A stretch of DNA of 64,000 bases from Pseudomonas sp. S31 (lineage in GTDB: Bacteria; Pseudomonadota; Gammaproteobacteria; Pseudomonadales; Pseudomonadaceae), in the NCBI RefSeq assembly GCF_016648105.1, contig NZ_JACVVE010000005.1, positions 1-64,000 on the forward strand, in the 5' to 3' direction. The stretch's first letter is position 1, and each line of letters begins with the position of its first letter. The notes beneath the pieces were generated by a model that did no database searches, had not been told where the DNA came from, and was given only the letters and a program-made list of their open reading frames with translations. Below, piece by piece: positions 28,086 to 49,600 of the stretch. The position numbers and the translations under genes are program-made.

Positions 28086-28976
28086 ATGACCCCAGAACAG
28101 CTGATAACGTTCGCCACCGTTGCCGAGCATGGCAACATCAGCCATGCCGCACTGGCCCTGCACCTGTCGCAACCGGCGGTGTCCGGCCAGCTCAAGCTGT
28201 TGCAGGAAGCCTTTGGCGAGCCGTTGTACCAGCGTGCCGGGCGCGGTGTGCGGCTGACCCCGGCCGGCGAGCAGTTGCTGGCCCACGCCGAGCGCCTGCG
28301 CGACACCTTCCGCCAGGCCCAGGCGCTACGTGAAGCCATGCTCGGCCTGGAGCGCGGCACATTGCGCATCGGCGCCAGCACCACGCCGGCCAGCTACCTG
28401 CTGCCCTACCTGCTGGCCGATTTCCAGGCCCGCTACCCGGACGTGCTGGTGACCACCAGCAATGGCAACAGCGCCGAGATCGTCGCGGCACTGGACAGCG
28501 TCGATATCGCCCTGATCGAAGGGCCGCCCGGGCAGTCGTTGCCGTTGGGCACCGAGGTCACGCCCTGGCGTGAGGACGAAATCGTCGCCATCGTGCCCAG
28601 CGGCCACCCCTTGGCGGGGCAGGAGCGCCAGGTGCTGGAGGTACTGGGGGATTTTCCGCTGGTGCTGCGCGAAAGCGGCTCGGGGGTGCGGCAGATGGTC
28701 GAGCGGGCGTTTGCCCGCGAGGGCGTGGCGATGCGCGTGGCGCTGGAGATCGCCGGGGTGGAAGGGGTCAAGGAGGCGGTGCGGGCAGGCATGGGGATCG
28801 GCTTCGTCTCGGCCATGTCGATCCGCCATGAGGACGGCGCGCTGCATCGGCTGCGGATCGGGCCGCAGCCGTTGGTCCGGCGCTTTTCCATCCTCATGCC
28901 GCACGCCGCCACGCCTTCACGGGCGGCGGCGCAGTTTTTACGGATGTGTCTGGAGGGGAGCGAGGAGGGCAGTTGA
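28086..28976 (+). CDS. LysR-family regulator, YeiE-like
   Basis: A 296-residue LysR regulator with HTH NISHAALALHLSQPAVSGQL (about residues 16-35) and a CysB-like substrate-binding domain. The placement opposite the YeiH exporter and the sequence type suggest the YeiE group, linked to sulfite or sulfur stress in enteric bacteria. It converges with the LuxR-type gene, 24 bases apart. The role is inferred from the neighbour. Confidence 0.83.
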   Translation: MTPEQLITFATVAEHGNISHAALALHLSQPAVSGQLKLLQEAFGEPLYQRAGRGVRLTPAGEQLLAHAERLRDTFRQAQALREAMLGLERGTLRIGASTTPASYLLPYLLADFQARYPDVLVTTSNGNSAEIVAALDSVDIALIEGPPGQSLPLGTEVTPWREDEIVAIVPSGHPLAGQERQVLEVLGDFPLVLRESGSGVRQMVERAFAREGVAMRVALEIAGVEGVKEAVRAGMGIGFVSAMSIRHEDGALHRLRIGPQPLVRRFSILMPHAATPSRAAAQFLRMCLEGSEEGS

Positions 28977-29000
28977 AGCGTGTGCGATGGTGCTACTTAC

Positions 29001-29561
29001 TCACTTCACCAACCGAGCAATCAACTCTGCGGTCGAATTCACGCTGTATTTCTTCAACAAGCTGCACCGATGGATATCCACGGTCCGCGGGCTGATGCCC
29101 AGCGTCTTGGCCGCTTCCTTGCTCGTCTGCCCATCGACGAGCAATGCCGCGACGTCGCGCTCGCGGGGCGTCAGGGTGATTCTGCTATGGGGCACTTGTG
29201 CCTGCACCGAGTCGGTGAACACCCAGGCAGCATGCTGATAGGGGTCCGCTTCATTGAACCCGTAGCCCCTGACAGTCACCCAGAAGTGCGTGCCGTCCAT
29301 ACGTCGCATGATCCGGTCGTCATTGAAGTGTTCGTGGCGGGATAACAACGGCGCGAAATGTTCGGCCGCATTCAGGAAGTCTTTCTGGGCAGGATAAAGC
29401 ACCGCGAAAGAGGCCCCGATAATACGTTCGGGCGTGGTGCGAAACAGACTCAATGCCCGCTCGTTACAGTGGGTGATCTTACGATTCTCGGCAACGATCA
29501 CGGCCACCGGCAAGTGGTGGAGTATTCCCAGGGCATCAGGCCCGTTGTCGTTACTGCTCAC
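29001..29561 (-). CDS. PAS-LuxR two-domain regulator
   Basis: A 186-residue protein with an N-terminal PAS domain (about residues 8-118; VAENRKITHCNERALSLF) and a C-terminal LuxR-type HTH (about 125-186; LTPREREVAALL-like core, then SKEAAKTLGISPRTVDIHRC). There is no receiver domain, so a small ligand or redox cue at the PAS domain is likelier than phosphorylation. It is divergent from the MFS-M19 pair and is the natural candidate regulator. A perfect 18-base palindrome lies 58 bases upstream of its start. Confidence 0.82.
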   Translation of the reverse strand: MSSNDNGPDALGILHHLPVAVIVAENRKITHCNERALSLFRTTPERIIGASFAVLYPAQKDFLNAAEHFAPLLSRHEHFNDDRIMRRMDGTHFWVTVRGYGFNEADPYQHAAWVFTDSVQAQVPHSRITLTPRERDVAALLVDGQTSKEAAKTLGISPRTVDIHRCSLLKKYSVNSTAELIARLVK

Positions 29562-29911
29562 GCCTCGATCCCCTCATGAATGGCTTTCCAGAGCCCGAGC
29601 CGCCTTCCTTCCCGTAGTCGATCACCTAGGTGATCGTGATGCCTGGACCCTTCAGGTACGGCCGCCCTATGATGACATCAGCTTGGAATTGACGACAAGT
29701 TGCTCGCGCATTTCAAGCCCTGCCGCTGTTGCAGCGGCGAACTTCCGATTGCCCATTTCCAATAACAAGACGCTGTTCAATCTTCCTGCGATTTACGTGG
29801 CGAAAGACCACGCGTATCGCATCGCCTGGCCGATCGATTCCTTGCTTCATTGCTGCCCATCCTAGAAGCACGTATGTGCGACCAATTACAAGAAAACCAG
29901 GAGAGCAACGC
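29562..29911. promoter_or_regulatory. divergent intergenic region with an 18-base palindrome
   Basis: This 350-base gap between the PAS-LuxR regulator and the MFS transporter has no supported gene. Its main feature is the palindrome at 29619-29636. The right half is less GC-rich than the neighbouring genes and presumably holds the transporter promoter. Confidence 0.5.
29619..29636. promoter_or_regulatory. perfect 18-base palindrome
   Basis: CGATCACCTAGGTGATCG is perfectly self-complementary. The ACCTAGGT centre and dyad symmetry fit a dimeric LuxR-type HTH, and the nearest such protein is encoded 58 bases away. Confidence 0.6.
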
Positions 29912-31258
29912 ATGAATGATAATGCGCCCGTGTCCCCCTCCATGCTACGCAAAGTGACCACCGCGGCGGCGGTCGGCAACTTTGTGGAGTGGTTCGATTT
30001 CGCCGTCTACGGCTTTCTCGCAACGGTGATCGCCAAGCAGTTCTTTTCCAGTGACGACCCCAATGCGGCGCTGTTGCAGACCTTTGCCGTGTTCGCCGTG
30101 GCATTCGCGTTCCGCCCCCTGGGCGGCGTCGTGTTCGGGTCGCTCGGCGACCGCTACGGGCGCAAACGGGTGCTGTCGATGACGGTACTGATGATGGCCG
30201 GGGCCACCACGGTCATCGGGCTGCTGCCGACCTACCAGAGCATCGGCTTGATGGCGCCGATCCTGCTGACGCTGACGCGCTGCATCCAGGGCTTCTCCGC
30301 TGGCGGGGAATACGCCGGGGCGTGCGCCTACCTCATGGAACACGCCCCTCGGCACAAGCGCGCCTGGTATGGCAGCTTCATTCCGGTGTCGACCTTTTCG
30401 GCCTTCGCCTCTGCGGCGGTGATCGCCTACCTGCTCGATGCCAGCTTGTCGCCAGAGGCCATGAGCAGTTGGGGCTGGCGAGTACCGTTCCTGGTCGCTG
30501 CGCCACTCGGCATCGTGGGCCTGTACCTGCGCTGGAAGATGGAAGAAACGCCGACCTTCAAGCAGGCCATGGCTGCGGAAGACGAGCACGCCCACTCGCC
30601 ACTGAAGGAAACCTTCAAGCACCACAGCGGCACGATTCTTCGCCTTGGCGCGTTCATTTCGCTCACGGCGCTGTCGTTCTACATGTTCACCACTTACTTC
30701 GCCACCTATCTGCAGGTGGTCGGCCACCTGACCCGGGCGCAGGCACTGATGGTGTCGACCATCGCCTTGCTGTTCTCGGCTGGCGCGTGCCCTGTGGCCG
30801 GCGCCTTCGCCGACCGTTTCGGGCGGCGCAGGACCATCGGCTTCACCTGCCTGTGGGCCATTGTCTCGGTGTTCCCCGCGTACTGGCTGGCCAGTTCCGG
30901 GGACCTCTACGCGGCCGTGCTGGGCGTCATCCTGCTGGCGGTCGCCGCAGTGTTCTCGGGCGTGGTCACGGCGGCGCTGCTCTCCGAGGTATTCCCGACC
31001 CGCGCGCGCTATACCGCCTCGGCCATCACCTACAACGTCGCCTACACCTTGTTCGGCGGCACCGCGCCGCTGGTCGCCACCTGGCTGATTTCCCTGACGG
31101 GCAGCAGCCTGGCACCGGCCTTCTACCTGGTGCTGATCGCCTTGCTGGCGCTGGTGGGAGGGCTGGCGTTGCCCGAAACGTCGCGCATCTCGCTGCACGA
31201 TGAGCAGGACGCGGTGCGCCCATCCAACCACCAGGAGGTAACCCATGAACCCACGTGA
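29912..31258 (+). CDS. MHS-family MFS transporter
   Basis: A 448-residue, 12-helix metabolite:H+ symporter. Landmarks: VGNFVEWFDFAVYGFLA in helix 1, GSLGDRYGRKRVL between helices 2 and 3, and GFSAGGEYAGACAYLMEHAP in helix 4, as in ProP-like carriers of amino acids, betaines and dicarboxylates. The ATG at 29912 follows CCAGGAGAG; upstream open codons are ignored. Its last 14 bases overlap the start of the M19-like gene, so the two are translationally linked. Substrate unknown. Confidence 0.85.
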   Translation: MNDNAPVSPSMLRKVTTAAAVGNFVEWFDFAVYGFLATVIAKQFFSSDDPNAALLQTFAVFAVAFAFRPLGGVVFGSLGDRYGRKRVLSMTVLMMAGATTVIGLLPTYQSIGLMAPILLTLTRCIQGFSAGGEYAGACAYLMEHAPRHKRAWYGSFIPVSTFSAFASAAVIAYLLDASLSPEAMSSWGWRVPFLVAAPLGIVGLYLRWKMEETPTFKQAMAAEDEHAHSPLKETFKHHSGTILRLGAFISLTALSFYMFTTYFATYLQVVGHLTRAQALMVSTIALLFSAGACPVAGAFADRFGRRRTIGFTCLWAIVSVFPAYWLASSGDLYAAVLGVILLAVAAVFSGVVTAALLSEVFPTRARYTASAITYNVAYTLFGGTAPLVATWLISLTGSSLAPAFYLVLIALLALVGGLALPETSRISLHDEQDAVRPSNHQEVTHEPT

Positions 31259-32222
31259 GATACACGACTCCAGCATCGTCATCGACGGCCTGATCATCGC
31301 CAAGTGGAGCCGCGAGCTGTTCGAGGACATGCGCAAGGGCGGGCTCACCGCAGCCAACTGCACGGTGTCGGTGTGGGAGGGCTTCAAGGCCACCGTCGAC
31401 CAGATCGTCGCCAGCCAGAAGCTGATCCGCGACAACAGCGACCTGGTGATGCCGGTGCGCACCACCGCCGACATCCGCAAGGCCAAGGAGCTGGGCAAGA
31501 CCGGCATCCTCTTCGGCTTCCAGAATGCCCACGCCTTCGAGGACCAGATCGCCTACGTCGATGTCTTCAAGCAGCTGGGCGTGGGCATCGTGCAGATGTG
31601 CTACAACACCCAGAATCTGGTTGGCACCGGCAGTTACGAGCGAGACGGCGGCCTGTCGGGCTTCGGTCGCGAGATCGTCGCCGAGATGAACCGTGTCGGC
31701 ATCATGTGCGACCTGTCCCATGTTGGCTCCAGGACTTCGGAAGAGGTCATCCTCGAATCGAAGAAACCGGTGTGCTACTCCCACTGCCTGCCGTCCGGCC
31801 TCAAGGAACACCCGCGCAACAAGACCGATGCGGAACTCAGGTTCATCGCCGAGCATGGCGGCTTCGTTGGCGTGACCATGTTCACGCCGTTCCTGGCCAA
31901 GGGCATCGACGCGACCATCGACGACTACGCCGAGGCCATCGAGTACACCATGAACATCGTCGGTGAAGACGCCATCGGCATCGGCACCGACTTCACCCAG
32001 GGCCACGGCCAGGACTTCTTCGAGTACCTGACCCACGACAAGGGCTACGCCCGTCGCCTGACCAACTTCGGCCAGATCATCAACCCGCTGGGCATGCGTA
32101 CTGTCGGCGAATTCCCCAACCTCACTGAGACTTTGCTCAAGCGCGGGCATCCAGAGCGCGTGGTGCGCAAGATCATGGGGGAGAATTGGGTGAATGTGCT
32201 CAAGGAGGTGTGGGGCGAGTGA
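31245..32222 (+). CDS. M19 (renal dipeptidase) family protein with altered metal site
   Basis: A 325-residue protein of the membrane dipeptidase (M19) fold. It keeps DLSHVGSRTSEEV (H159), YSHCL (H180) and the EHPRNKTD segment. The family's first metal motif, DGHxD, reads DGLII here (L16, I18), and the bridging glutamate of GxEG reads GFQNA (Q93). A classic di-zinc dipeptidase site is therefore unlikely. Close relatives occur in Pseudomonas beside betaine catabolism genes. AGGAGGT at 31234-31240 is an excellent ribosome binding site inside the preceding transporter gene. Confidence 0.8.
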   Translation: MNPREIHDSSIVIDGLIIAKWSRELFEDMRKGGLTAANCTVSVWEGFKATVDQIVASQKLIRDNSDLVMPVRTTADIRKAKELGKTGILFGFQNAHAFEDQIAYVDVFKQLGVGIVQMCYNTQNLVGTGSYERDGGLSGFGREIVAEMNRVGIMCDLSHVGSRTSEEVILESKKPVCYSHCLPSGLKEHPRNKTDAELRFIAEHGGFVGVTMFTPFLAKGIDATIDDYAEAIEYTMNIVGEDAIGIGTDFTQGHGQDFFEYLTHDKGYARRLTNFGQIINPLGMRTVGEFPNLTETLLKRGHPERVVRKIMGENWVNVLKEVWGE

Positions 32223-32241
32223 GGTGAACGGTGGCTGATCG

Positions 32242-32269
32242 GCCCATCGCCGGCGTGCCGGCGATGGGC
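32242..32269. terminator. 13-base perfect hairpin between convergent genes
   Basis: GCCCATCGCCGGC and GCCGGCGATGGGC form perfect 13-base arms around GT. It lies between the stops of the M19-like gene and the GntR gene. No T-run follows, so it is either a strong hairpin that blocks read-through or a repeat. Confidence 0.6.
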
Positions 32270-32277
32270 GCATGCGG

Positions 32278-32952
32278 TCATGCCAGTTCGCCGATCCACT
32301 GCGCCAGGCGATCGCCATCGCAGGCATTGTGCTGCCAGGCGAGCTCGCCGGCCTTGTCGCTTTCACCGGCGAGGATCGCCTGGACGAATGCGCGATGTTG
32401 CTCGAGGATGGTGTCGTTGGTCGGGTGCATGACCAGGTTGGTGGTGTTGATCACCCAGCGCACCTGCTGTTGCACCAGGGCATACTGGCGGATCAGGCGC
32501 TGGTGGCCGGTGCCCTCGATGATCGCTCGGTGCAGCGCGAAGTCGCACTGGTTGATGTTCTTTTTCCCACCTTTTTCGCAGGCTTTGCTCAGGTCGACGA
32601 ACGCCGCTTCGATCGCCTGCAGCACCCGTGGATCCCGCTGCTTTGCCACCAGGGTGGCGGCAAGGCGCTCCAGGCTGCCGCGCAGCGTCCATATCTCCCA
32701 GACATCGTCGGCCGTGAGCTCGGCCACCTGCCAGCCGACGTAAGGGGTCTGCACGACGATACCTTCGGTCGCCAGGCGATTGAGCCCGGTTCGCAGGGTA
32801 CCCCGGGCGATACCCAACTGGTCCGCCAGCGCAGTCTCGGTGATGCGTTCGCCGGGCTTCAGATGGCCGGAGAGAATCGACTCCCTGAGGCTGTCGGTGG
32901 CTTGCTGTTCGGCGGAGAGCTTCGAGACTGGACGAAGCTGGATGGATTTCAT
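32278..32952 (-). CDS. GntR-family (FadR-type, FCD) regulator
   Basis: A 224-residue regulator with an N-terminal winged HTH (LADQLGIARGTLRTGLNRLA) and a C-terminal all-helical FCD domain whose conserved D, H and H residues (for example DFALHRAI and EQHRAF) normally bind a metal and a carboxylate ligand. The ATG at 32952 follows AGGA; an earlier ATG 20 codons upstream is less likely. It is divergent from the MFS transporter-aldolase pair and probably represses it through the dyad at 33098-33113. Confidence 0.83.
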   Translation of the reverse strand: MKSIQLRPVSKLSAEQQATDSLRESILSGHLKPGERITETALADQLGIARGTLRTGLNRLATEGIVVQTPYVGWQVAELTADDVWEIWTLRGSLERLAATLVAKQRDPRVLQAIEAAFVDLSKACEKGGKKNINQCDFALHRAIIEGTGHQRLIRQYALVQQQVRWVINTTNLVMHPTNDTILEQHRAFVQAILAGESDKAGELAWQHNACDGDRLAQWIGELA

Positions 32953-33097
32953 GAAAGCGGGTCCTGATGGCGACGCGCTGACATATAGCATTGCCGAGGG
33001 CTTTTTGTACACATCCGGCCCTGCTCAGGTCTGCCGGTCAAATACTGTAGATCACTTAAATCGACGATAACTCATTGATTGTAAATGTGTTTATTGT

Positions 33098-33113
33098 TGA
33101 TTGTTGACAATCA
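33098..33113. promoter_or_regulatory. GntR-type operator (TGATTGT-TG-ACAATCA)
   Basis: Perfect 7-base arms around TG. The TTGT-N2-ACAA core fits the operator pattern of FadR-subfamily GntR proteins. It lies in the 285-base divergent gap between the GntR gene and the MFS transporter; the rest of that gap is AT-rich with no gene. Confidence 0.6.
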
Positions 33114-33237
33114 TCAATCTGCCGCATAGATTTTCATGCAGCAAGCCGCCCGGCGCGCCTGCGTAATAACAACAAGCAAAAAACAACAATTCATCGATGC
33201 CTACAAATAAAACAACGCGTGCAGCAAAGGTGATGAA

Positions 33238-34560
33238 ATGAAAGCAGCGATAGATGTGTCTTCAGCGTGCGATTCCTCCCGGCAACTCGATGGCATCTAC
33301 AAGAAGATGTCGGTTCGCCTGATCCCGTTTCTGTTTCTGTGTTACGTACTGGCGTACTTTGCAAGGATCAATGTCAGCTTCGCCAAGCTGGATATGCTGG
33401 CCGACCTAGGCATATCGGAAACGGCCTACGGCCTGGGCGCGGGGATCTTCTTTCTCGGGTACCTCATTTTTGCCGTGCCCAGCAACATCATCCTCGAACG
33501 CATGGGGGCTCGGCGCTGGATCTGCTGCATCATGGTGGTGTGGGGCGCGCTCACTTCGCTGATGATGCTGATCGAAAACGTGAGCACCTTCTACGTGCTA
33601 CGGTTCCTGATCGGCGTCGCCGAAGCTGGGTTTTTCCCAGGCATCATCTACTACTTCACCCGCTGGTTTCCCAGTGAGCGCCGAGGCAGGGTGATTTCGC
33701 TGTTCATGGCGGCGATACCGCTGTCGGGCATCATTGGCGGGCCGTTGTCGGGCTGGATCATGTCGAGCATGCAGCATGCGCCGATGGGGCTTTCCAGCTG
33801 GCAGTGGCTGTTCCTCTTGTATGGCATTCCGACGATCGTGGTGGGCTTTTTCGTCAAACGCTGCCTGCCCAACAGTTTCGAGGAGGCCGAGTTCCTCACC
33901 GAAGAAGAGAAGCAACGGGTCAGGCTCGAACTGGCGCGTGATGCCGCTACCCAGGCACCCAACCAGCAACGCGCATCCTTGCTCAGCTTCCTGTTCTCGC
34001 CAGTGGTCTGGTATTTCAGCCTGGTCTATTTCCTGATCGAAATGGGTGAGTACGCCTTGGGCTTCTGGATGCCGACCATCATCAAGAACGCCGGCTTCGA
34101 CGACATGCAATCGGTCGGCCTGTTGACCGCCGTTCCATACTTGGTCGCCAGCTTCGTGATGATCTACGTCGGCCGCTCGGCCGACCTGCGCAACGAGCGC
34201 AGGTGGCACCTGGCAATTCCACTGTTCATCGGCATGATCGGATTGGTGATGGCCGCGCACTTTTCCCATAACGGGCAACTGGCCATGCTGGGCTTGACGC
34301 TCGCGACCTGTGGGGTGATGGCCTCCTTCCCGATCTTCTGGACCGTACCCACCGCGATGTTGGGCATCAACGCGGCGGCCGGCGTGGCGCTGATCAACTC
34401 CGTGGGCAATCTCGCAGGATTCTTCAGCCCCTTCCTGGTGGGCTGGACAGTCGACCTGACCAAGAGCACCGACTTCTCGCTCTACGTGGTGGCAGGTTGT
34501 GCGTTCGCGGGTGCGGTGCTGTTCGTCCTGGTGCCCAAACGTTTCGCCAGCAGTAAGTGA
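33238..34560 (+). CDS. MFS transporter of the anion:cation symporter type
   Basis: A 440-residue, 12-helix transporter. RLIPFLFLCYVLAYFARINV in helix 1, ILERMGARRWI between helices 2 and 3, and GVAEAGFFPGIIYYFTRWFP in helix 4 are standard for the ACS family, which imports sugar acids, hydroxy acids and aromatic acids. It is followed after 10 bases by the class II aldolase gene, so an operon for uptake and cleavage or decarboxylation of an organic acid is likely. Substrate unknown. Confidence 0.85.
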   Translation: MKAAIDVSSACDSSRQLDGIYKKMSVRLIPFLFLCYVLAYFARINVSFAKLDMLADLGISETAYGLGAGIFFLGYLIFAVPSNIILERMGARRWICCIMVVWGALTSLMMLIENVSTFYVLRFLIGVAEAGFFPGIIYYFTRWFPSERRGRVISLFMAAIPLSGIIGGPLSGWIMSSMQHAPMGLSSWQWLFLLYGIPTIVVGFFVKRCLPNSFEEAEFLTEEEKQRVRLELARDAATQAPNQQRASLLSFLFSPVVWYFSLVYFLIEMGEYALGFWMPTIIKNAGFDDMQSVGLLTAVPYLVASFVMIYVGRSADLRNERRWHLAIPLFIGMIGLVMAAHFSHNGQLAMLGLTLATCGVMASFPIFWTVPTAMLGINAAAGVALINSVGNLAGFFSPFLVGWTVDLTKSTDFSLYVVAGCAFAGAVLFVLVPKRFASSK

Positions 34561-34570
34561 GGAGATGAAA

Positions 34571-35308
34571 ATGCAAGCTGTCAAAACCCTTGAGCAAGAA
34601 CTGTATTACGACCCCCAGGTCGCCAAGCTGCGCGCGGACCTAGCCCTGGCGCTGCGCGCTGCGGCCTTTCACGGCCTTGCCGAAGGCGTCTGCAACCACT
34701 TCAGTGTCACGCTGCCAGGCAGGCCGGACCTGTTCCTGCTCAATCCCCGCGGCCTGATGTGGGAAGAGGTCCAAGCGGACGACATCGTGATGGTGGACGA
34801 AATGGGCAAGCGCCTGGCCGGTCGCCACGAAATCGAACCGACCGCTATGTTCATCCATGCCGCGATCCACCGCGTCGCCAAGAAGACTTGCGTGCTGCAT
34901 ACCCACATGCCGTACGCCACGGCGCTGACGTTGACCCAGGCCCGGGCACTGGACACGACCCTATCGCAGAACGCCATGCGCTTCCATGATCGTCTGGTGA
35001 TCGACGACCGATACAACGGCTTTGCCCTCGATCACCGTGAAGGGGAGCGTATCGCCATGGCCATGAATGGCGCCGATATCGTCTTCCTTGGCAACCACGG
35101 CGTGGTCGTATGTGCAGAGCGCATCGACTATGCCTACGACGATCTCTACTACCTGGAGCGGGCGTGCAATGCCGAGGTACTCGCACGTTCCACCGGGCTG
35201 GCCCTGGTACCTGCCGACCCGGAGATGGCCAGCAAGGTAGCGGCGCAGGTCGACAGTGAGCGGTTGCAGTCGGAGTTGTTCTTCCAGGCCCTGGGGCGCA
35301 AGTTGTAA
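34571..35308 (+). CDS. class II aldolase/adducin family protein
   Basis: A 245-residue cytoplasmic protein of the class II aldolase family, a zinc enzyme fold that cleaves or epimerises sugar phosphates or acts on other carbonyl acids. The paired metal ligands are in VLHTHMPYA and the third histidine in LGNHGVVV. The catalytic-side glutamate is in IEPTAMFIHAAIHR. I choose ATG 34571 rather than 34565 because GGAG at 34561-34564 has correct spacing only for the second. It belongs to the operon regulated by the GntR protein. A strong terminator follows. Confidence 0.82.
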   Translation: MQAVKTLEQELYYDPQVAKLRADLALALRAAAFHGLAEGVCNHFSVTLPGRPDLFLLNPRGLMWEEVQADDIVMVDEMGKRLAGRHEIEPTAMFIHAAIHRVAKKTCVLHTHMPYATALTLTQARALDTTLSQNAMRFHDRLVIDDRYNGFALDHREGERIAMAMNGADIVFLGNHGVVVCAERIDYAYDDLYYLERACNAEVLARSTGLALVPADPEMASKVAAQVDSERLQSELFFQALGRKL

Positions 35309-35328
35309 TAGCCGGGCAGTACGAGACG

Positions 35329-35360
35329 AAGCCGGATGTGCATGCATGTCCGGCTTTTTG
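35329..35360 (+). terminator. Rho-independent terminator after the aldolase gene
   Basis: AAGCCGGA and TCCGGCTT form the stem, with a 12-base loop and a run of five T on the plus strand, 20 bases after the aldolase stop. Confidence 0.8.
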
Positions 35361-35490
35361 CTGCGGAGGCATCAATATCGCTGGCAGTGATGACTCGCGG
35401 CGAAGGGGAACAGGTTCCGGAGATTCAGGTTCGGTAATTCGCGCGGTGCTCGGTATGATGTGCGCAACGCTATTCCCGTCAGAGTGCACC

Positions 35491-35658
35491 ATGAACCGCC
35501 AGAAAAAAATCAAGCAGCTGCTCAAGGCCCATGCCAAGAAGGCCAGTGCCAAGCTGGCGCCGCGCAGCAACAAGCCCAGGTACATCAGCAAGGCGGACCG
35601 TGAGAAGCTGGCGGCGCAGGCCGCGGTCGAGACCAACGTGGAGCCGAGCGCGGACTGA
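35491..35658 (+). CDS. DUF2986 small basic protein
   Basis: A 55-residue, lysine-rich protein (MNRQKKIKQLLKAHAKK at the start; RYISKADREKL in the middle) of the DUF2986 family, common in gammaproteobacteria. The function is unknown; the charge suggests nucleic-acid or ribosome contact. It converges with the L31 gene, 9 bases apart. The ATG at 35491 follows AGAGTG, a modest ribosome binding site. Confidence 0.75.
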   Translation: MNRQKKIKQLLKAHAKKASAKLAPRSNKPRYISKADREKLAAQAAVETNVEPSAD

Positions 35659-35667
35659 GCGGGCGGC

Positions 35668-35922
35668 TTACCTGCTGGTAAAGGCCGCGAAGCGCTTGTT
35701 GAAGCCCGCCACGCGACCTTCGGTCTTGGCCTTGCGCTCCTGGCCGGTGTAGACCGGATGCGAAGCGCTGGAGACGTCGAGGGTCACGTACGGATAGGTC
35801 TTGCCGTCGCTATGCGAGTAGGTCTTGTCCGTGTCGATGGTCGAGCCAATCAACCAGAAGGCGTTGGCGGAGACGTCGTGGAACAGGACAGGGCGGTAGT
35901 CGGGATGGATGTCGGGTTTCAT
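35668..35922 (-). CDS. rpmE2: 50S ribosomal protein L31 type B (zinc-independent)
   Basis: An 84-residue L31 of the cysteine-free type B form (also called YkgM). [16 protein letters not shown] and the [18 protein letters not shown] core are diagnostic; the four zinc-binding cysteines of type A are missing. Type B L31 replaces the zinc form when zinc is scarce and frees zinc for the cell. In Pseudomonas it is controlled by Zur, and a matching dyad lies just upstream at 35937-35957. Confidence 0.94.
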
Positions 35923-35936
35923 GCGGCTTACCTATG

Positions 35937-35957
35937 GAATGATATAAAGTAACATTC
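35937..35957. promoter_or_regulatory. Zur-type box upstream of rpmE2
   Basis: Reading in the direction of the gene, GAATGTTAC, three bases, then ATATCATTC: the arms match at 7 of 9 positions. The AATGTTA half-site agrees with known Zur boxes. It lies 15 bases before the rpmE2 start codon, where repression is easily explained. Confidence 0.7.
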
Positions 35958-36094
35958 TAGATAATGACTCTCATTCCCTGGGTTGTCCAGCCCTGAGCTT
36001 TTCAAGGAGGCTGCGGTTCTCACCTTAGTACGTGATGCCCCGTGAGTGGAGGCGGTTAGGTACACCCCCATCAGCTCCGAGCAAATCCAATTCC

Positions 36095-37294
36095 TCAACC
36101 CACCCGAAACACGTGCTTCATATACGCCACGAAATTCTCATCCCGACATTGCGTCTTCCCCGGGCTGTCTGAGATCTTCGCCACCGGCGCCCCATTGCAC
36201 CCGGTCATCTTGATCACGATATTCATCGGCTCCACCCCAGGAATATCACAGGTCAGCCGCGTGCCGATGCCAAAGCTCACGTTGATCCGCGCGTGCAATG
36301 CCCGGTACAGCTCCAGCGCCTTGGCGAAGTCCAGGCCATCGGAGAAGATCAGCGTCTTGCCCTTCGGGTCGATGCCCAGCCGCTCATAGTGGGCGATGGC
36401 TTTCTCCGCCCAGGCCAGCGGGTCGCCGGAGTCGTGGCGCAGGCCGTCGAACAGCTTGGCGAAGTACAGGTCGAAATCGCCCATGAAGGCGTCCATGGTG
36501 ATGCAGTCGGTCAGGGCGATCCCCAGTTGCCCGCGGTATTCGCGCACCCAGCATTCCAAGGCGGCCGCCTGGCTGTCGACCAGGCGTGGGCCGAGTTGCT
36601 GGTGGGCCATGAACCATTCGTGGGCCATGGTGCCGATGGGCTTGAGGTCGTACTCACGGGCCAGGTGCGCATTGCTGGTGCCGACGAAGCGGCCGGGGAA
36701 ATCGCGCTTGAGGATGTGCACGACTTCTTCCTGTACCCGGTAGGAGAAGCGCCGCCGGGTGCCGAAGTCGGCCAACTGGAAGCCGGCCAGCTCCTCGGCG
36801 CTGGCCTCGGACTGCAGCCAGTCGAGTTTCTGGTACAGGCGCTCGCCAACCTGCTCGATCACCACGTCGCGGTAGCGATAGCGGTTGCGCACTTCGCTGA
36901 TGATCGCCAGCAGCGGGATTTCATAGAGAATCACGTGCAGCCAGGGACCGCGCACGCGGATCGCCAGCTGGCCACTGTCGTCCAGGCCGATCTGCACGTA
37001 GCGCAGGTTGAAGCGGAACAGGCTGAGGAAGCGGATGAAGTCCGGCTTGATGAAGGGGATCTTCTCCAGGTACGCCAACTGGTCGTGGGTGAGGGTGACG
37101 TCGGCCAGTTGCTCGACCTGGTAGCGGATTTCCGCCAGGTAGGGCGCGAGGTCTTCGCCGTTGCGGCAGCGAAACTCCCACTCCACCTCGGCGTTGGGAT
37201 AGTTGTGCAGCACCGCCTGCATCATGGTGATCTTGTAGAAATCGGTGTCCAGCAGGTTCTGGATGATCCGTGGGCCGAAAACGCTGTCGCTCAT
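36095..37294 (-). CDS. pncB: nicotinate phosphoribosyltransferase
   Basis: A 399-residue enzyme of the Preiss-Handler NAD salvage pathway: nicotinate + PRPP + ATP to nicotinate mononucleotide. The N-terminal [15 protein letters not shown], the [13 protein letters not shown] motif carrying the phosphorylated histidine, the [10 protein letters not shown] phosphate loop and the C-terminal CRDENF segment are all present, and the length fits. Its ATG overlaps the stop codon of the upstream pncA remnant (ATGA), so the two were once an operon. The island that disrupts pncA may have separated pncB from its native promoter. Confidence 0.95.
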
Positions 37295-37640
37295 GGGCGG
37301 TCTTCCTTGATCAGAGAGAGCTGGTAGTCGAGCGCGGCCTCGTCGCCGCAGAGGATGACGCCCTCGGCGGCCAGTGCGCCGCAGGCGCTGATGGCGCCTT
37401 CCTGGGTGAGGGCGCGGCAGGCTGGGAGGTACAGCAGCACCTGGAAACCGGCCCGACGCAACTGCTGGGCGGTGGTCTTGACGCAGTAGTCCAGGGCCAG
37501 GCCGCCGACGATCACCGCGCCCACCTGGTGCACCTTGAGGTATTCGATGACCCCGGTCGAGCGGCGCTCGGCCAGGTCGTGGTAGCAGGCGCCATAGGGG
37601 TGCAGGTCGGGTTCGACGCCTTTCCAGACGTTTTGCGGAT
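37291..37640 (-). pseudogene. pncA: nicotinamidase, 5'-truncated by the island
   Basis: From about 37635 leftward the minus strand reads [20 protein letters not shown] and then [13 protein letters not shown] with the nucleophilic cysteine, ending KEDRP. This is the C-terminal half (about 115 residues) of an isochorismatase-fold nicotinamidase that feeds PncB. The N-terminal half with the catalytic Asp and Lys and the metal ligands is missing; beyond about 37640 the frame continues into unrelated sequence. An ATG at 37533 could start an 80-residue fragment, without function. The break marks the left end of the island. Confidence 0.8.
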
Positions 37641-37964
37641 TGCACTAAAGTCAGCCATTTCTTGTCAACGTTACCCAGCCGCTCCATCCTACCCTGAAGC
37701 CCCTGATTCAAAAGGTCTCAGCCCTCTAAGCACCCACAAAGCACCACCGTCACCAAGCAGTTGGCTCCGCCAAGCCTAGCCAATCGACACGCCAGGTGCG
37801 CTCCAAATTCACACCCCCGGTAGGTGCCACAGGCTCGAACCTGCCCCCCAAAAATCCCTCACCCACCATCCCGTCCGACCTCCACGACTACCCTAAAACC
37901 ACCCCAATCCCACGCCCCTACTTTCCCCAAAAAACACCAAACTCACACAGCGACACCCAGGCAC
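37641..37964. other. gene-free island edge with extreme C-over-G skew
   Basis: This 324-base stretch between the pncA break and the STAND gene has no supported gene. From 37851 to 37949 I count 49 C and only 4 G in 99 bases of the plus strand. An RNA read rightward would be C-rich and G-poor, as in Rho utilisation sites, and would protect the oppositely oriented STAND gene from antisense transcription; that role is a guess. Confidence 0.55.
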
Positions 37965-40199
37965 TTAGCGATCCCTACTGAACAGATCATCAATGTCCAG
38001 GGCCTCCAGCCTGCTCTGATCGGGTCGGTGAGAAACGTAATTTTCATCTTCTTCCCGGAAGTAATTTCGCATGCGATATGGAACGTCATAGACGTCAACA
38101 ATCTCATCGATCATTGCCCTGGTGGCAGAGACCTGCCAGCTTTTGAACTTATCATCTATCATAACGATTAGATTTTTGTTGGACGCGTCCAAGTCCTCGC
38201 CGTCGCTGAATACAACGCTTTCCTCAAACATCTCATCCAGTGAGTCCGTTATAAACTGGAGAGCTAGCTCTGTGAATGGCTCAGTTGCTTCATGGAAGTC
38301 GTTCATCTCAAGAAGACCTACCAAGTCGCCTAAAGCGGGCAGGTCTTTCTCGTCGATGCCGAAGTTAATTACATCTAGCACAAAGCTCCCAGCCGAGGAA
38401 GGCGTAATGATTTCCTCATTTATCGCATCTGCCAGCACCACCAAGCAATATTCGCAGTTTCTCGTAATCGGGTTGTTCAGTATGACATCAGTAACAAGCT
38501 TCATGCGTCGTCTTAATTCGGCTTCGTTAAGGCCTATCTGAGTGCTGATGTAGAGTTTGGCAAGGTATTCCGGAGGGCTACCCTCAAAACCCAGACTCTC
38601 CTCATGCTTGAAAAGTGATCTGAACAAACCCATTGTCACATTGCTAGGAGTGAGATTGTTGCCTGTCATGTCCTGAAGTTTTTTGATGGTGCTGAGACTA
38701 CGTAAGCACTTATACAAAGACTCAAGCAGCGACGAATCTTTCGCGTATCTATGTAGTAGGAAGTCCCCAACTGAGGGGTTGAACAGCTTATAATAAACTT
38801 TATCGCCCATCATCACGCGAGTTAGCAGGGAGTTTGAAAGGTGTCGGGTTGCGACAGCGAATTCCCGCTTGCCTTTAAAGTTAGCATGCTCCGGCATACG
38901 TAAGCCCGTTGCGTAGGCTTTAGCCAGATCCTCTTCAAGGATGCTCTCCCCGTGGAACGCGACCAGAAGAACTAGGAATCGCCCAAAGTCATCAAGTTGC
39001 GCATCGTACGGATGTTCCCAGATTTTCTTGGGGTTGTTCAGGAGGTCAGTGATATGCTTCCAATAATCTTCCGCCGGTACATCCTTCAAGCGGTCTGGGT
39101 CAGTAATGAACTGGATGATTCGAGGATTGAAATTGTGATGTCGGATGATCTGGTGGTAACGCTTCTTTACATAGAACGACTCTTTATACTCATCCCCGAG
39201 GCCTGAATGCCATATATGGTTGTACAGGATGTGGGCTTTGTCGATGCTTGAAAGCGATTGGAGCTTGATCTCCATTTCGTTTTGATCGACCTTGCTGTTC
39301 TCAAATGCATCGCTCAGGATCCGCCCCTGATTTAATATCGTTGATCGAGACGTCAGTACGAATCTCTTTTTTGACCGGTCGCGATGAATTCTTTTGATGA
39401 AGTGAGCGATTTGACTGCCTTCGTTTCCCGCTAGCGCTTCCAGGTAGTTTTGACCTAAGAAATCGTCAAAATAGAAAAGCTGCTGTCTGTCAGGTACGTA
39501 TGCCTGCTCAGCCTCATGTAAATTATGGCTGATGGAAAGAAATTCGAACCCTTTTTGGGCATAGAACAAGATGAGTTGCTCAGCCAATGTGGTTTTTCCG
39601 ATGCCCGCCTGGCCGGTGATAATGACCGTGCCTTGCTTGTCCAGCTTGTCTAGAGCCTCGTTGAAACAACCTGTCTGGACGAAAATTTTTGATCTCTCAA
39701 CGATTTCGCTCATCATCGCATCGCTGCGGCCCGCAATGGCATTGTTGAGCAGGCGGACTAACACGGTAGCGCTGCTGATCCAGAGCTTGAAGTGCCTTTG
39801 CTCCACCATAGGATGCCTGGCAAGCAAGTCGTTGAGATCCTCTTTGCCGTAAACGCTCACGGGGCAAGAGGCGCCAAGCGCAGTAATCAGCTCTTCCTTG
39901 TTTAAGCTCGAAAGCGGATGCGAGACCACCAGGATGTACCATTCGGGCTGAAGCACAGCGACCTTGGGTGCTTCCGATGAACGCAAGTGCGCCACAAGTT
40001 TGGAAAAAGGCGTAGCAGCCCAGTGCTTGGCCTGGAGGATCCACTCGCCACCGTTAGGGCTGTGATAACGGCCATCAACCCCACCGTCTCGACCGGCTTT
40101 GAAACGCTCAAAACGAACGCCTTCTTCGGCGCCGATCAGATCGGTACACAGCACCTCGAACTCTTTGTCGTTGAGGCGCGAAAAATCGTAATCGTTCAC
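37965..40199 (-). CDS. Mrr-type nuclease fused to a STAND NTPase (Avs-like defence protein)
   Basis: A 744-residue protein. Residues 1-120 form a Mrr-like restriction endonuclease domain with the D-x(n)-QxK signature (GRDGGVDGRY, D38; ILQAKHW, Q56 and K58). Residues about 170-400 form a P-loop NTPase: Walker A GQAGIGKTT at 196-204, Walker B-like LFYFDDFLG with D245-D246, typical of the nSTAND3 group. The C-terminal 340 residues are helical and may be the sensor. The arrangement of effector, STAND ATPase and sensor is that of Avs-type antiviral proteins, which cut DNA after recognising a phage protein. The start is a GTG at 40199, the first codon after an in-frame stop. Confidence 0.8.
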   Translation of the reverse strand: MNDYDFSRLNDKEFEVLCTDLIGAEEGVRFERFKAGRDGGVDGRYHSPNGGEWILQAKHWAATPFSKLVAHLRSSEAPKVAVLQPEWYILVVSHPLSSLNKEELITALGASCPVSVYGKEDLNDLLARHPMVEQRHFKLWISSATVLVRLLNNAIAGRSDAMMSEIVERSKIFVQTGCFNEALDKLDKQGTVIITGQAGIGKTTLAEQLILFYAQKGFEFLSISHNLHEAEQAYVPDRQQLFYFDDFLGQNYLEALAGNEGSQIAHFIKRIHRDRSKKRFVLTSRSTILNQGRILSDAFENSKVDQNEMEIKLQSLSSIDKAHILYNHIWHSGLGDEYKESFYVKKRYHQIIRHHNFNPRIIQFITDPDRLKDVPAEDYWKHITDLLNNPKKIWEHPYDAQLDDFGRFLVLLVAFHGESILEEDLAKAYATGLRMPEHANFKGKREFAVATRHLSNSLLTRVMMGDKVYYKLFNPSVGDFLLHRYAKDSSLLESLYKCLRSLSTIKKLQDMTGNNLTPSNVTMGLFRSLFKHEESLGFEGSPPEYLAKLYISTQIGLNEAELRRRMKLVTDVILNNPITRNCEYCLVVLADAINEEIITPSSAGSFVLDVINFGIDEKDLPALGDLVGLLEMNDFHEATEPFTELALQFITDSLDEMFEESVVFSDGEDLDASNKNLIVMIDDKFKSWQVSATRAMIDEIVDVYDVPYRMRNYFREEDENYVSHRPDQSRLEALDIDDLFSRDR

Positions 40200-40373
40200 T
40201 CAGACACCCACTCTATGTCAGAGGGCTACGATAGCATTTAGCTAAGCGGGGAGAGGATGGAGACCGAGATCGCTTGGCATGGCAGACGGCATAGAAAATG
40301 ACGGAGACGATCAAGCTGCGTCGCAACTGCGGCGCGGTCAAGATTTCTTGAGTTCGGTTCTAGATGACTCATT

Positions 40374-40445
40374 TCACTGGGTGGCCGGCGAAATGTCAGG
40401 GGCGCCATAGCGGGCGTTGAGCTTGGACTGGGCATCGGCTTTCAT
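40374..40445 (-). CDS. possible 23-residue peptide or gene remnant
   Basis: A frame of 23 codons (MKADAQSKLNARYGAPDISP...) follows a GGAGC ribosome binding site. It looks protein-like but is very short and may be what is left of a longer gene in the 360-base gap between the STAND gene and the next ORF. No family recognised. Confidence 0.25.
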   Translation of the reverse strand: MKADAQSKLNARYGAPDISPATQ

Positions 40446-45420: not shown

Positions 45421-46626
45421 ATGTCCAAGGAAATGGAATCTACACCCACCGAAGTCAGTGCTTGCGTAGAGCAGTGGTTAGACGGGCCGTATGGGAAGTA
45501 CGCGCGGGCGAAGGTGCTGACGCCCGAATCACCTACGCCTGAGGCGATCTACAGCCCGAAGACGTTGAAATGCCAGCCAGAACTCGGCGTGCCATTTGAT
45601 TGCAAAATCCAGCTGAGTAAGGGTCGCTGGCGTGTCGTTGAGCTCGCAGAAAGCGCCAAGCCGGTTGAGGTTAGGCTCACGGGATTCGTTGAGTCTGATT
45701 TGATGGTTAGCGGCCAACGATCCTGGCGGATCAAACTTATCCCAGGGCAACCTGGTGCAGCGCACGCTACCCTCGATTCCAAGGCGCTTCGAGCGGCAAG
45801 ATTTGCTCATATAGAGCGTGGGCAGGAACTCACCTTTATGGCGCTGCCGAATGAAGCGGACTGGACGGTGACTGAAATCCTGGAGCCGACGCTAGCAACC
45901 GTTATCACTGATTCGCTGATCGCATTCCACGCATTCCCGCTGCGGGACTGGAGCACGAACGATTCCGTCAAAAGTGTGCCCTTCGCAGTCAGGCTGCCAG
46001 GCGTTTCGATCTGGCCTCTGGTAAACGTCTTCACTACATTACTGCGGCGTCAGTCTATTCCATCCCTTACGAGAGTTGACGTAAGTGACCCAAGCGCAGT
46101 GAGCCGGGCAGAGGACTACATCGAGCATGCCCAAACTGTCTTGCGGGAGGGCTCCCCTCAAGAAATCGACTGCCTGAGTATCGGGTGCATTGAGGTGACC
46201 CTGGTCTGGAATGCCCGAGGGTTCTGGAATACCCAAAAGCTAGTCGCCCCGATTCCGATGCGTGAGCCAACCCCCAAAGAGGCCATTGACTGGGTTGAGG
46301 GTACGGTCGTCGCTGTCGATAATATCGATGAAAGTGAGTCCATCGAGGTGGAAGCCGAGCCATTGGAAATTGACGAGATCGCCCCCCAGGATGCTCCACC
46401 TGGAAGCGACTCATCCAAGAAGAAGATTCAAAAAGTGAAAGTGACAATTGAGATCAAGGATCGAAGGGTAGGGCGGGGTAACGTCAACGGGTTCTTCAAA
46501 CGTGAGGAGATTGTTTACGGCGGACTCACCAAAGGAACAACGGCCATCGTCCAGTTAGTCGGTAATCCACCCTACTGGAATGTCAGCCGTTTGCATCGAT
46601 CCCTGCCTATGCGAGGTGAAGCATGA
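45421..46626 (+). CDS. repeat protein with OB/cold-shock-like units, first gene of the operon
   Basis: A 401-residue protein of unknown function. Four segments share a pattern in which a strand pair is followed by W-x-V/T and a hydrophobic strand: GRWRVVEL, DWTVTEIL, GFWNTQKL and PYWNVSRL. This looks like repeated small beta-barrels (OB or cold-shock-like) that could bind single-stranded nucleic acid. An acidic linker (about residues 295-335, ending DSSKKKIQKVKV) precedes the last unit. Its stop overlaps the helicase-topoisomerase start (ATGA), so the two proteins are probably made in equal amounts and work together. Confidence 0.6.
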   Translation: MSKEMESTPTEVSACVEQWLDGPYGKYARAKVLTPESPTPEAIYSPKTLKCQPELGVPFDCKIQLSKGRWRVVELAESAKPVEVRLTGFVESDLMVSGQRSWRIKLIPGQPGAAHATLDSKALRAARFAHIERGQELTFMALPNEADWTVTEILEPTLATVITDSLIAFHAFPLRDWSTNDSVKSVPFAVRLPGVSIWPLVNVFTTLLRRQSIPSLTRVDVSDPSAVSRAEDYIEHAQTVLREGSPQEIDCLSIGCIEVTLVWNARGFWNTQKLVAPIPMREPTPKEAIDWVEGTVVAVDNIDESESIEVEAEPLEIDEIAPQDAPPGSDSSKKKIQKVKVTIEIKDRRVGRGNVNGFFKREEIVYGGLTKGTTAIVQLVGNPPYWNVSRLHRSLPMRGEA

Positions 46627-49600
46627 GGGCAGCGCTGAGTACGTTTCTAAAAAACTTGTCCGCTCTCTTTTCACTTCAAGCAACTGAGAGCACTCCACCG
46701 CTACGCGGTGCCACTCCAGTTGATGCTTCCGTTACGCTCGGTTCGCTTGCCAAAGCTCACTCAACAGCCAAGCTTCACTCACCAGCCCAGCCTCATTCGT
46801 CAGCCGAGCCTCATCCACTTGGCAATTCGGTGTCGGCTGTATCGCGCTCGCCTGTGCTTCCTCCAGAAGATGTTGCCGCCTACTGGAAGGGGGGCTTGGA
46901 TTACGTCAACTTCAGCTCTTTCGGTGGCAAGTCTAAAGACGCGCCGGCGCACAAGATGATACTGGCGTTGGACGAGGTTGCTCAGGTCGCAACCCAGATT
47001 GAGGATGGATTGGTCGGCGAAGATGTGGCTGTCGTCTTCATGCTCTGTCAGCTGAACACTCGTGACAAGCGGCTTGTGAGCCGTCATCCGTTGCTTGCTG
47101 TTCCCGCGTTGCTGGTGGAAGAAAAATTCCTGGCACCCCGAACCTCCGCTGCACCTATTTTAAACCCTGCTTATCTGTCTCCTGATCAGAGGGGGGATGC
47201 CTTCGCGATCGCTGATGGTCAACTGGCCAATGAACGCATGTTCGATGCACTGGGGCAACTCTCCTCTGACAAGTCACTGCAGGTGGATTGGGCAACGTGG
47301 TGGTCGACGCCACTGAGTGTTGTGCGCGAGCTACTCAAGGTCGACCAGGATGAGGCATTGCTAGAGAAGCTGAGATCGCTTGCCAAGGAGACAGCGGCCT
47401 CAACCACCAGAGGCAAGACCGACTCCGCGAATTGGGTGCTTCGTGCTGTCGTGTTTCCCTCGCAAGGCTCTGCGGCAAAGGCGATGGTTGATGTGTACGC
47501 GAGCTTCCTCGATGCCAAAGAGCGCCCCAAGATCTCTTTGTTCGAACGGTTTTGTGGTGGGGAGCAGGCACTCCAAGCAGCGAGTATGCCGAGTGGGATT
47601 GCCAACCTGATCACCGGCCATATTGACGAGTACGACGACTCCAAAGGCAATCGCCCACTGTTCCCATTGGACGAGTCCCAGCGCAGAGCTGCATGCGCTG
47701 TTGCCAGTCTTCAAGACGGCGAAATCCAAGCGATTAATGGCCCTCCTGGAAGCGGTAAGACTTCGATGTTGCGTGCGGTAGTTGCCAGCCGATGGGTCAG
47801 TGCAGCTTTAAACCAAGAGGCATGTCCGATCGTCGTCGCCTGCGGGGCAACCAACCAATCAGTTACCAACGTTATCGAAGCTTTCGGCAAAGCGCCTCAT
47901 CCAGACGACTCATTGCCTCACGCCCAGCGTTGGATCGCAGGTGTTCCCAGCTATGGGGCATATTTTGCTTCCAAGAGCATGCTGGGCAACACGGACAAAC
48001 AAGCGGAGCTCGCTCGGTTCGTCTGTGTACAGAGCGATTGGGGCTCTACAGGCATGCTGTGGTCGTACAAGGATAAGCCATCTGTCTTGACGCCTAACAA
48101 TGCCCTGGAGCTCGAGGAGGCCTATCTGGCACACGCCAGAAGGGTGTTCCCTCAGCACGCTCTGTCGAGCATGGAAGCTGCCGTTGAAGTTGTGCACCGA
48201 GAACTGCGTGTCACCGTTAAGCTGCGCGACACCTTTTTGGAGTACTTGGCGAAAGATGATCCAAGCTGGTTGACGCTGCTTGAAAATGCTCGGCCCACTC
48301 CGGCAACGATCTGGCACGCTGATCGCCATGAACAGTTGAATAGGCTGATTGGCAATCTCAAAAAGAACCGGGGGGATGCAGATGCAGCGCGAGGTGCAAT
48401 CGACCTCACGTTTAGCAGCGACGCGTTTCACTGGGCGGCGCGGTATTGGGAAGGACGTTTTCTTCTCGCTCAACGTGAGCGGCTGTTCTCACGGCACCCT
48501 GCAAATGTCGAAGAGTCGCTGCGTCGTCTTTGCATGCTGACACCTTGTCTGGTTTCAACGCTGCATAACGTATCAACGCTTGGACAAATAAGCCCCTTGG
48601 TTGAGGGCGATAGCGCAATCAAACACTCCTTTTCCCTGTTTGACCTCTTGGTAATTGACGAGGCAGGACAGGCATCTCCGGAGCTTGCCGGCCCAGCGTT
48701 GCTGATGGCTAAGAGGGCAGCTGTCGTGGGGGATCTGAAGCAGCTTGAGCCTATTTGGAACCACAAGTCGCTCAGCGAGATCGCTGTCGCATCGGCTGCA
48801 GGCGTCTTCAATCGCCTCAATGATCTGAAGCAATCGCGCTTGTCCATTGCTGATGGCAGCGTGCTTGCTGCTGCCCGATTGGTATCGAAATGGCGAGAGG
48901 AAAAAGATCTTGGGATCACTCTGCGGTATCACTATCGCTGTAAGCCAAGCATCATCGGTTACTGCAATGCGCTGAGCTACAACAAGACGTTGGTACCCAG
49001 AACCTCTGAAGGCAGTGCTGGCCACGAACCCGCCATGTCGTGGGTTTCGATAGAGAACAAGCCTGTCCGAAAGGGCGGATCTCTATGCAATCCAATGGAG
49101 GTGGAGCACATCACCAGTTGGATTGGTGAACGCTGGCCTGCCTGGCAGACCGACCCTGCCACGAAGGGCAAATCCATTCAGGATATTGTCGCGCTGATCA
49201 CGGCTTACCGCCCGCAAGCCAACCTCTTACGTGCTGAACTCGAGAAGGTATTCGATCAGTTGAGAGGTACCGGCTCGATCGCTTGGCCCACCGTTGATGA
49301 CATCAAGAAAGTCACGGTCGGTACTGTCCATCAACTGCAAGGTGCAGAGCGACCCATCGTCTGCTTCAGTTTGGTTGAAGGCCCTGATGAAGCTGCAGGA
49401 AGCTTCATGGATCGGGATGCCTCTCTGTTGAACGTGGCTGTGTCGCGAGCGAAATCCTCCTTCATCGTCTTTGGGCATCCGAAGCGGCTGTTTCCTGCCC
49501 CTGAGGCAAATGAAGCGGGTCTTGCGCCAATCCATTTTCTCGGTGCTTATCTGCGCAAAACCCCTCAAGCTCGATTGCTGTACCCAAGACGCTTGGTAGT

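Follow-up and report, generated by a model that had tools for sequence, protein, structure and literature searches.

A 166.5-kb island within the Pseudomonas nicotinamidase gene pncA and its probable site-specific integration by a multi-recombinase cassette

GInts are genomic islands that carry three tyrosine recombinase genes and the gene of a small protein at one end, in the order ginA-ginB-ginC-ginD. They are described as flanked by imperfect direct repeats of 10-17 nt and as excising in circular form, which requires all four genes, and their cargo ranges from 2.5 kb to at least 70 kb in islands that reach at least 76 kb (PMC5385486). The search described in the same text relied on three consecutive coding sequences, GinA, GinB, and GinC, with ginD as the last gene (PMC5385486). 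Others have filed elements with ginABCD under the Tn554 family, as its subfamilies Tn6488 and Tn6571 (PMC8865565). Strand-biased circularizing integrative elements (SEs) have imperfect inverted ends of 13-19 bp, the gene order intA-tfp-intB-srap, and lengths of up to 58.5 kb (PMC10214605). Tn554 itself combines an ordinary and a large tyrosine recombinase with a small protein, is target-specific, and leaves a 6-bp footprint (PMC10214605).

The island compared with these systems here interrupts the nicotinamidase gene pncA of a Pseudomonas genome (G000; 6.37 Mb, 114 contigs). It was very probably integrated site-specifically into this gene, most likely by four proteins, C, B, D, and A, encoded at its right end. 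The window, meaning the whole stretch of DNA analysed, comprises bases 1-64,000 of contig C70 (215,200 bp), and window and contig share one numbering.

The interrupted gene and the ends of the island

The host gene downstream of pncA is pncB, encoding nicotinate phosphoribosyltransferase (36095-37294, minus strand), assigned from DNA homology to relatives and from a PF04095 match of 313.7 bits at 36098-36781. Next to it, the 3' part of pncA (37291-37630, minus strand) comprises residues 105-216 and the stop codon at 37291-37293; it was recognised by tblastn with the 216-residue PncA of a relative (G024) and by the Pfam family Isochorismatase (PF00857), which covers 37351-37560 with 31.1 bits at a cut-off of 27. 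The domain and the synteny with pncB support the identity of the fragment. A sequence-only reading of the window had described the pncA frame as intact from 37291 to about 37635 and as unrelated sequence thereafter. The border is real and lies slightly further to the left, with the match to intact relatives running up to 37630, none continuing beyond, and the boundary at 37630/37631. When the query was extended to 37640, all seven long-match relatives stopped at query base 631, which is position 37630.

The same reading held that the N-terminal half of PncA had been lost, and this half is still present in the genome, separated from the rest by 166,511 bp. A search of the genome with the upstream-of-break region of an intact relative located the 5' part, from the start to codon 104, to the right of the island at C70:204142-204452 (minus strand, outside the window; tblastn with G024 PncA). 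The two parts are 79% and 78% identical to PncA of G024 (tblastn), and in the uninterrupted relative L016 they directly adjoin each other (2131/2132). A chance or assembly break is ruled out because the 5' part stands on the same contig and resumes at the next base of L016. Since the pncA match ends at 37630 and resumes at 204142, the island is placed at C70:37631-204141 (166,511 bp), of which 37631-64000 lies in the window. It is one insert between the two pncA parts with no host bases lost, and its G+C content is 53.2% against 64.5% in the flanks. The view that the insertion lies in pncA and not in a tRNA gene agrees with a scan of the nine pieces making up C70, in which no tRNA or tmRNA was found, although a gene spanning a piece border could escape; a tRNA target was therefore rejected.

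The left, recombinase-distal junction retains the native 6-bp core CGTCTG (gene strand; 37625-37630, minus strand), and at the right, recombinase-proximal junction stands the foreign hexamer GAAGCC (gene strand; C70:204136-204141, outside the window). The cut falls between F104 and V105, and the core spans the third base of codon 104 to the second base of codon 106, shortly before K107 of the motif VWKG. Intact relatives read TT CGTCTG GAAAGG or TT CGTGTG GAAAGG at this site, once with GAAGGG; the pattern was found in 15 of the 18 intact loci tried and not in the other three, the search pattern itself being selective and two of the loci (L137 and L016) belonging to the same genome. The left terminal inverted repeat TTTTGCGGATTGCA (37631-37644, plus strand) and its right partner GTTTGCTGATTGCA (C70:204122-204135, minus strand, outside the window) are identical at 12 of 14 bases, and an inner inverted repeat TCTTGTCAACGT occupies 37660-37671 (plus strand), with its partner at C70:204107-204118 (minus strand, outside the window). 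Read inward, the left end runs CAGACG, then TTTTGCGGATTGCA and on to TCTTGTCAACG, and the right end runs GACTACTT, then GAAGCC, then GTTTGCTGATTGCATGATCTTGTCAACG.

Duplicated bases at the two ends had been proposed as a check on the insertion. No host duplication was seen at the junctions, which show a six-base exchange pattern instead, and target-site duplication was rejected. Among exact 10-mers sought around the two junctions, the single direct one (37521/204485) stands away from them. The layout bears the mark of a six-base staggered exchange of the type described for Tn554, SEs, and GInts. In the proposed mechanism, exchange would occur at or near the core CGTCTG of pncA, the native core would stay at the left, recombinase-distal junction, and six other bases, taken as carried by the element, would end up at the right, recombinase-proximal junction. 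The recombinase-like proteins A, B, and C and the small protein D would catalyse integration, and the element may still be able to excise. In this way, what looked like a gene fragment becomes an attachment site defined at both ends, with a core of 6 bp and four genes that are candidates for the integration machinery.

The C-B-D-A cassette among described elements

Reading inward from the right border of the island, outside the window and all transcribed inward on the minus strand, the cassette comprises C (795 aa, C70:201253-203640), B (690 aa, C70:199194-201266), D (216 aa, C70:198502-199152), and A (488 aa, C70:196963-198429). The phage integrase family matches A at 9.7e-15, and its matches to B (0.0022) and C (0.064) fall short of the cut-off. 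B keeps R441, K467, H560, R563, H588, and Y597 in 15 of 15 rows, with H588 at 98% in 45 rows. In C, R528, R603, H626, and Y637 are conserved throughout one set (30 of 30 rows); a second set, of 42 rows, has H626 below 90% and shows no exception at the other three residues. Residues ~190-658 of the AlphaFold model of C (mean pLDDT 83.4) align with the Tn1549 integrase (Z 10.7, rmsd 5.3, 282 residues), and the model also aligns with XerA, XerH, and Cre, all of the top 24 rows being tyrosine recombinases. Foldseek on C alone gave no match below E 0.001, and helical models can reach such a Z by chance; the structural support for C is good, not strict. The integrase matches, the conserved residues, and the structural alignment of C together mark A, B, and C as tyrosine recombinase-like. 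The small protein D has no known family, and NCBIfam, PHROGs, and Pfam provided no useful name for C or D. Within the island, a 213-aa ORF (L047:9051-9692; C70:193051-193692) has a weak phage integrase match (0.0045) and is perhaps a recombinase remnant.

Relatives of B at 1e-10 occur in 52 of 398 genomes of the genus, including G000. The order C, B, A is found in all 45 loci read (44 relatives and the present one), 24 of them with a match to D. Among the best 80 of 82 relatives (named genomes), a set that overlaps with the former, profiles give C-B-D-A in 76, B-D-A in 2, and C-B in 2, and some of these exceptions stand at contig ends. The hosts of the best 80 of 82 are mostly Gammaproteobacteria (Pseudomonas, Stutzerimonas, Marinobacter, Shewanella, Photobacterium, Vibrio, Moritella, Acinetobacter, and others), with three Betaproteobacteria and one MAG labelled Planctomycetaceae. 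The P. aeruginosa plasmid H1 carries a C-B-D-A cassette beside ter genes, and we assume that it may belong to the plasmid group in which Tn6571 was named. The present cassette may already be known under a Tn6488/Tn6571-type name.

It is quite possible, with our judgement leaning slightly against it, that the element simply belongs to the published GInts (ginABCD, or Tn6488/Tn6571 within the Tn554 family) and that only its gene order is different in this lineage. GInts and the present island have in common three recombinases with a small protein, a highly specific insertion in or beside a protein gene, a staggered exchange of 6 nt, and a large, variable cargo with defence genes and no transfer genes noticed (PMC5385486, PMC10121019, PMC8865565). 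In contrast, ginD is described as the last gene in GInts, whereas the small gene lies between two recombinase genes here and is third in 76 of the best 80 (of 82) loci. In size, too, the published islands, which reach at least 76 kb with a cargo starting at 2.5 kb and extending to at least 70 kb, differ from the 166.5 kb found here, the comparison with GInts being one by description.

SEs resemble the island in their 6-bp footprint, in their few selected sites, and in having two recombinases, a recombinase-fold protein, and a small protein, and the 14-bp ends found here fall within the length range of SE ends (PMC10214605). Against this likeness, the C-B-D-A order is not that of SEs, and the 166.5 kb exceeds the SE lengths reported there. 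Moreover, the foreign 6 bp is intA-distal in the SEs described there and recombinase-proximal in G000 and in a second genome, G178, so the polarity is reversed. The replicon pAQU1 carries an SE according to the same paper (PMC10214605), and a four-gene set in the order intA-tfp-intB-srap stands in it by our own gene assignment. Against this one SE, the profiles of C and D gave no match to Tfp and Srap (E 0.23 and 0.21), and those of A and B matched IntA weakly (2.8e-5 and 2.5e-4).

Another small protein, NF040692 ('recomb_assoc'), which we take to be GmtX of the Gamma-Mobile-Trio islands, has matches in 32 of the 398 genomes. Its elements resemble the present one in that a small protein of ~200 aa stands behind two larger genes in Pseudomonas islands. 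They differ in composition, since in all five loci read a 465-489-aa protein is followed by an 862-1285-aa protein and then by the small one. The profiles of C, B, and D match none of these proteins, and A matches one first gene at 4e-4. NF040692 has no match in G000 and none among six D proteins scanned, which gave one chance-level PilP hit, and the cassette proteins of G000 have no Gmt-named NCBIfam match.

The likeness to Tn554 lies in the features given at the outset. The difference, in a comparison by description, is that Tn554 has three genes, tnpA-B-C, without a counterpart of C (PMC10214605). In the open-licence literature, no pncA island of such a kind appeared by title or start of abstract among the matches listed.

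Recurrence at one base of pncA and the choice of target

In G178, the 3' part of pncA ends at 12479 and the 5' part starts at 179037 of contig C111, with an insert of ~166.6 kb between them. It stands at the same pncA base and has the same layout, with TGGGGC as the foreign hexamer, TTTTGTGGAATGCA as the left end, and terminal inverted repeats that are identical at 14 of 14 bases. The sequence-only reading had left the choice between a specific target and a random event and had asked for other islands at the same place; the G178 island is such a case, and the recurrence of the base in other genomes settles the choice in favour of a specific target. In G329, only the 3' part is found, cut at the same codon, with the 14-base end of G178 and the core CGTCCG. 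The 5' part has no match in that genome at 1e-8, host homology past pncA resumes after ~44 kb, beyond where the next gene would stand, and the 105 kb read contain no matches to C, B, D, or A and no right end. G329 is thus a damaged third occupant of the site. A relative with the truncated gene and no island, named earlier as evidence against an insertion, was not found, the same truncation in G329 being accompanied by a damaged island.

In a census at 1e-15, 262 of the 398 genomes match PncA, which were split by eye into ~77 weak matches (best E between about 1e-15 and 1e-31), interpreted as other proteins of isochorismatase type, and ~185 strong ones. Three of these ~185 are cut at exactly this codon, and both pncA junctions are present in two genomes only, G000 and G178. 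Seven strong-match genomes and G000 were inspected singly. In G291, two PncA matches overlap within 540 bp, which we read as a frameshift.

A shared site could also be a matter of descent, if one ancestral insertion had preceded the split of G000, G178, and G329 and the recombinases and cargo had been replaced later. These hosts are rather closely related, with 84-90% identity in their aligned flanks, and ~90 kb of cargo common to G000 and G178 at 94-98% identity indicates that exchange between islands has happened. On the other hand, the right-junction hexamers (GAAGCC and TGGGGC) and the left ends of the two islands differ, and the four cassette proteins are 49-63% identical compared with 87-88% for the pncB-pncA flank DNA. 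The differing hexamers and this divergence argue for separate integrations. Moreover, a replacement that kept both ends exact would itself require site specificity, which is also favoured by the way the target follows the recombinase tree elsewhere. A single ancestral insertion is accordingly considered improbable.

A random or illegitimate insertion, whether by an IS, by plasmid co-integration, or through an assembly error, that hit pncA by chance is very improbable indeed. It does find a parallel in G408, where pncA is cut near residue 119 by a different insert of ~37 kb with an 8-base direct repeat, AGCAGGCG, so that pncA can be struck in other ways too. However, chance does not account for the same base in three genomes, the inverted ends, the recombinase cassette at the border, or the presence of both pncA parts on one contig in two assemblies. 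The G408 insert (C1:337294-374420; L158, L159) encodes SIR2-like and AAA proteins by reading, and the 40 kb read there held no C-B-D-A match.

Within 3.5 kb of C, the 45 loci show a part of hrpB in 13, chaA-like in 5, comM in 2, and pncA in 2, the remaining 23 being without a label; the names HrpB, ComM, and ChaA-like are those that we presume for these target genes. On a tree of the 45 B proteins, the four target groups need 3 changes, which is the minimum, compared with a mean of 8.5 when labels were shuffled (0 of 200 shuffles as low). The pncA, comM, and chaA-like targets correspond to one starred group apiece when set against the remaining labelled rows, and hrpB takes 2 changes. The two-row labels are weak when taken alone, being as clustered in 21 (pncA) and 16 (comM) of 500 shuffles, and the tree is a quick, unrooted one with a warning that long branches may have been joined. 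A wider set (97% support), in which all other labelled members are hrpB, encloses the pncA pair, and this makes a target switch from hrpB to pncA possible. Among the labelled loci, the target follows the recombinase tree, and with target choice tied to recombinase lineage, the targets of related islands would be predictable. Related islands occupying the exact same position elsewhere, diverged recombinases at the same base, and a target that follows their phylogeny all speak for pncA as a specific site that a multi-recombinase mobile element repeatedly targets, and against an accidental hit.

An island insertion in hrpB of P. aeruginosa is already in print (PMC8373256). The hrpB cuts lie within one to three codons downstream of DEYH in IFDEYHxRSLDADLAL, and the 13 hrpB-inserted relatives, viewed by eye, show a like layout of host, variable bases, and conserved end. 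The VWKG lysine and the DEYH motif are presumably conserved catalytic-site motifs, and a cut at such motifs would keep the target stable across species. Among the best 80 of 82 loci, with hrpB counted by eye, a part of hrpB stands beside C in 26 (1.3 kb away in L208), and pncA in one (L175, which is G178). A second, longer hrpB copy is present behind A in 13 loci among the best 80 of 82, 11 of them also having the broken part, and in 7 of those 11, which are mutually near-identical, this copy is an 849-codon frame that includes the N-terminal part. An example of the longer copy behind A is L172:13667-16213. The second copy is possibly a spare for the gene broken by the element, and the cargo of the hrpB lineages would in this way suggest compensation. 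It is further conceivable, and rather doubtful in our judgement, that C-B-D-A elements are a separate unnamed class, found mainly in Gammaproteobacteria, that recognises the DNA of active-site motifs (pncA before VWKG, hrpB behind DEYH), can carry more than 160 kb, and brings a spare hrpB in some lineages and none for pncA because the latter is dispensable.

Cargo, host effects, and adjoining DNA

The first cargo gene (37965-40199, minus strand) encodes an nSTAND3 NTPase with an Mrr-like domain and matches the candidate defence protein PDC-S73. A 1579-aa AAA helicase with a Toprim/topoisomerase part (46623-51362, plus strand) matches MkoC, and a Gabija-like pair on the minus strand (59074-61652) comprises a GajB-like helicase (59074-60099) and a GajA-like OLD nuclease (60084-61652). 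The adjacent pPIWI_RE system includes PprPIWI (61705-64000, minus strand) and, outside the window up to C70:68154, PprDinG and PprRE. The middle cargo contains BrxC/D-like, TerB-domain, and DEAD-helicase genes, TonB receptors, and a zinc set of ZnuA, ZigA, a second CobW-type GTPase, FolE2, CysS, HemB, PyrC, and DksA, with a Zur-like repressor whose match is below the cut-off; the set as a whole fits zinc starvation. At C70:126157-136590 (L006), the paralogues of zinc-starvation type (CysS, FolE2, ZigA, HemB, PyrC, DksA, and Zur-like) have the look of portable cargo. The right cargo holds an OLD and UvrD pair and a GmrSD enzyme. A very large cargo for defence and metal homeostasis can thus sit in one such element. 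No relaxase or conjugation genes were recognised from the first residues of 118 predicted ORFs. A phage origin and a plasmid origin of the left part were both rejected, with no match of 37640-40400 to phage records and none of 37640-62000 to plasmid records in a 'near'-mode search.

The ~90 kb of cargo common to the two complete islands lies within C70:68442-163939 in G000 and C111:24180-144493 in G178, and the recombinase genes of the two align in pieces at 67-71% DNA identity. With a cargo more similar than the flanks and recombinases that have diverged, the cargo and the integration genes have different histories, the movement of the former being independent of the latter. The same catabolic genes occur in G329, in its damaged pncA island (L156), and in G361, in DNA next to a distant C-B-D-A cassette (L126), one example being a protein that begins MSTPAEKLAAIF; cargo is therefore shared across cassette lineages.

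In the host, the 5' part of pncA continues ~12 codons into the insert before a stop, and residues 105-216 are now without a pncA start. Besides the two parts, a rescue PncA was sought in the genome at 1e-15 and not found, so the host has probably lost the ability to deamidate nicotinamide, judging from the genome sequence. The insertion of the island offers an explanation for such natural loss of nicotinamidase. A NAMPT-like second route was rejected, with PF04095 giving only two PncB proteins and no third member. The second pncB is located on contig C48, through which nicotinate use may persist, and it softens the cost of the insertion. The distance from pncB to the pncA start is 166 kb in the present arrangement, and the loss of the pncB promoter through the insertion, which the sequence-only reading had thought probable, is plausible. 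A promoter or terminator at the left end of the island acting on pncB was rejected, as 37200-38200 has neither a promoter-like site on the minus strand nor a terminator-like site.

On its other side, pncB adjoins a separate second insertion (28938-36094) that G178 and G329 lack; in these two genomes, the sequence next after pncB is homologous to the DNA on the left side of 28937. By reading, it contains two MFS transporters, a GntR-type regulator, and others, with a type B ribosomal protein L31 at 35668-35922. A matching stretch is found within the G178 island.
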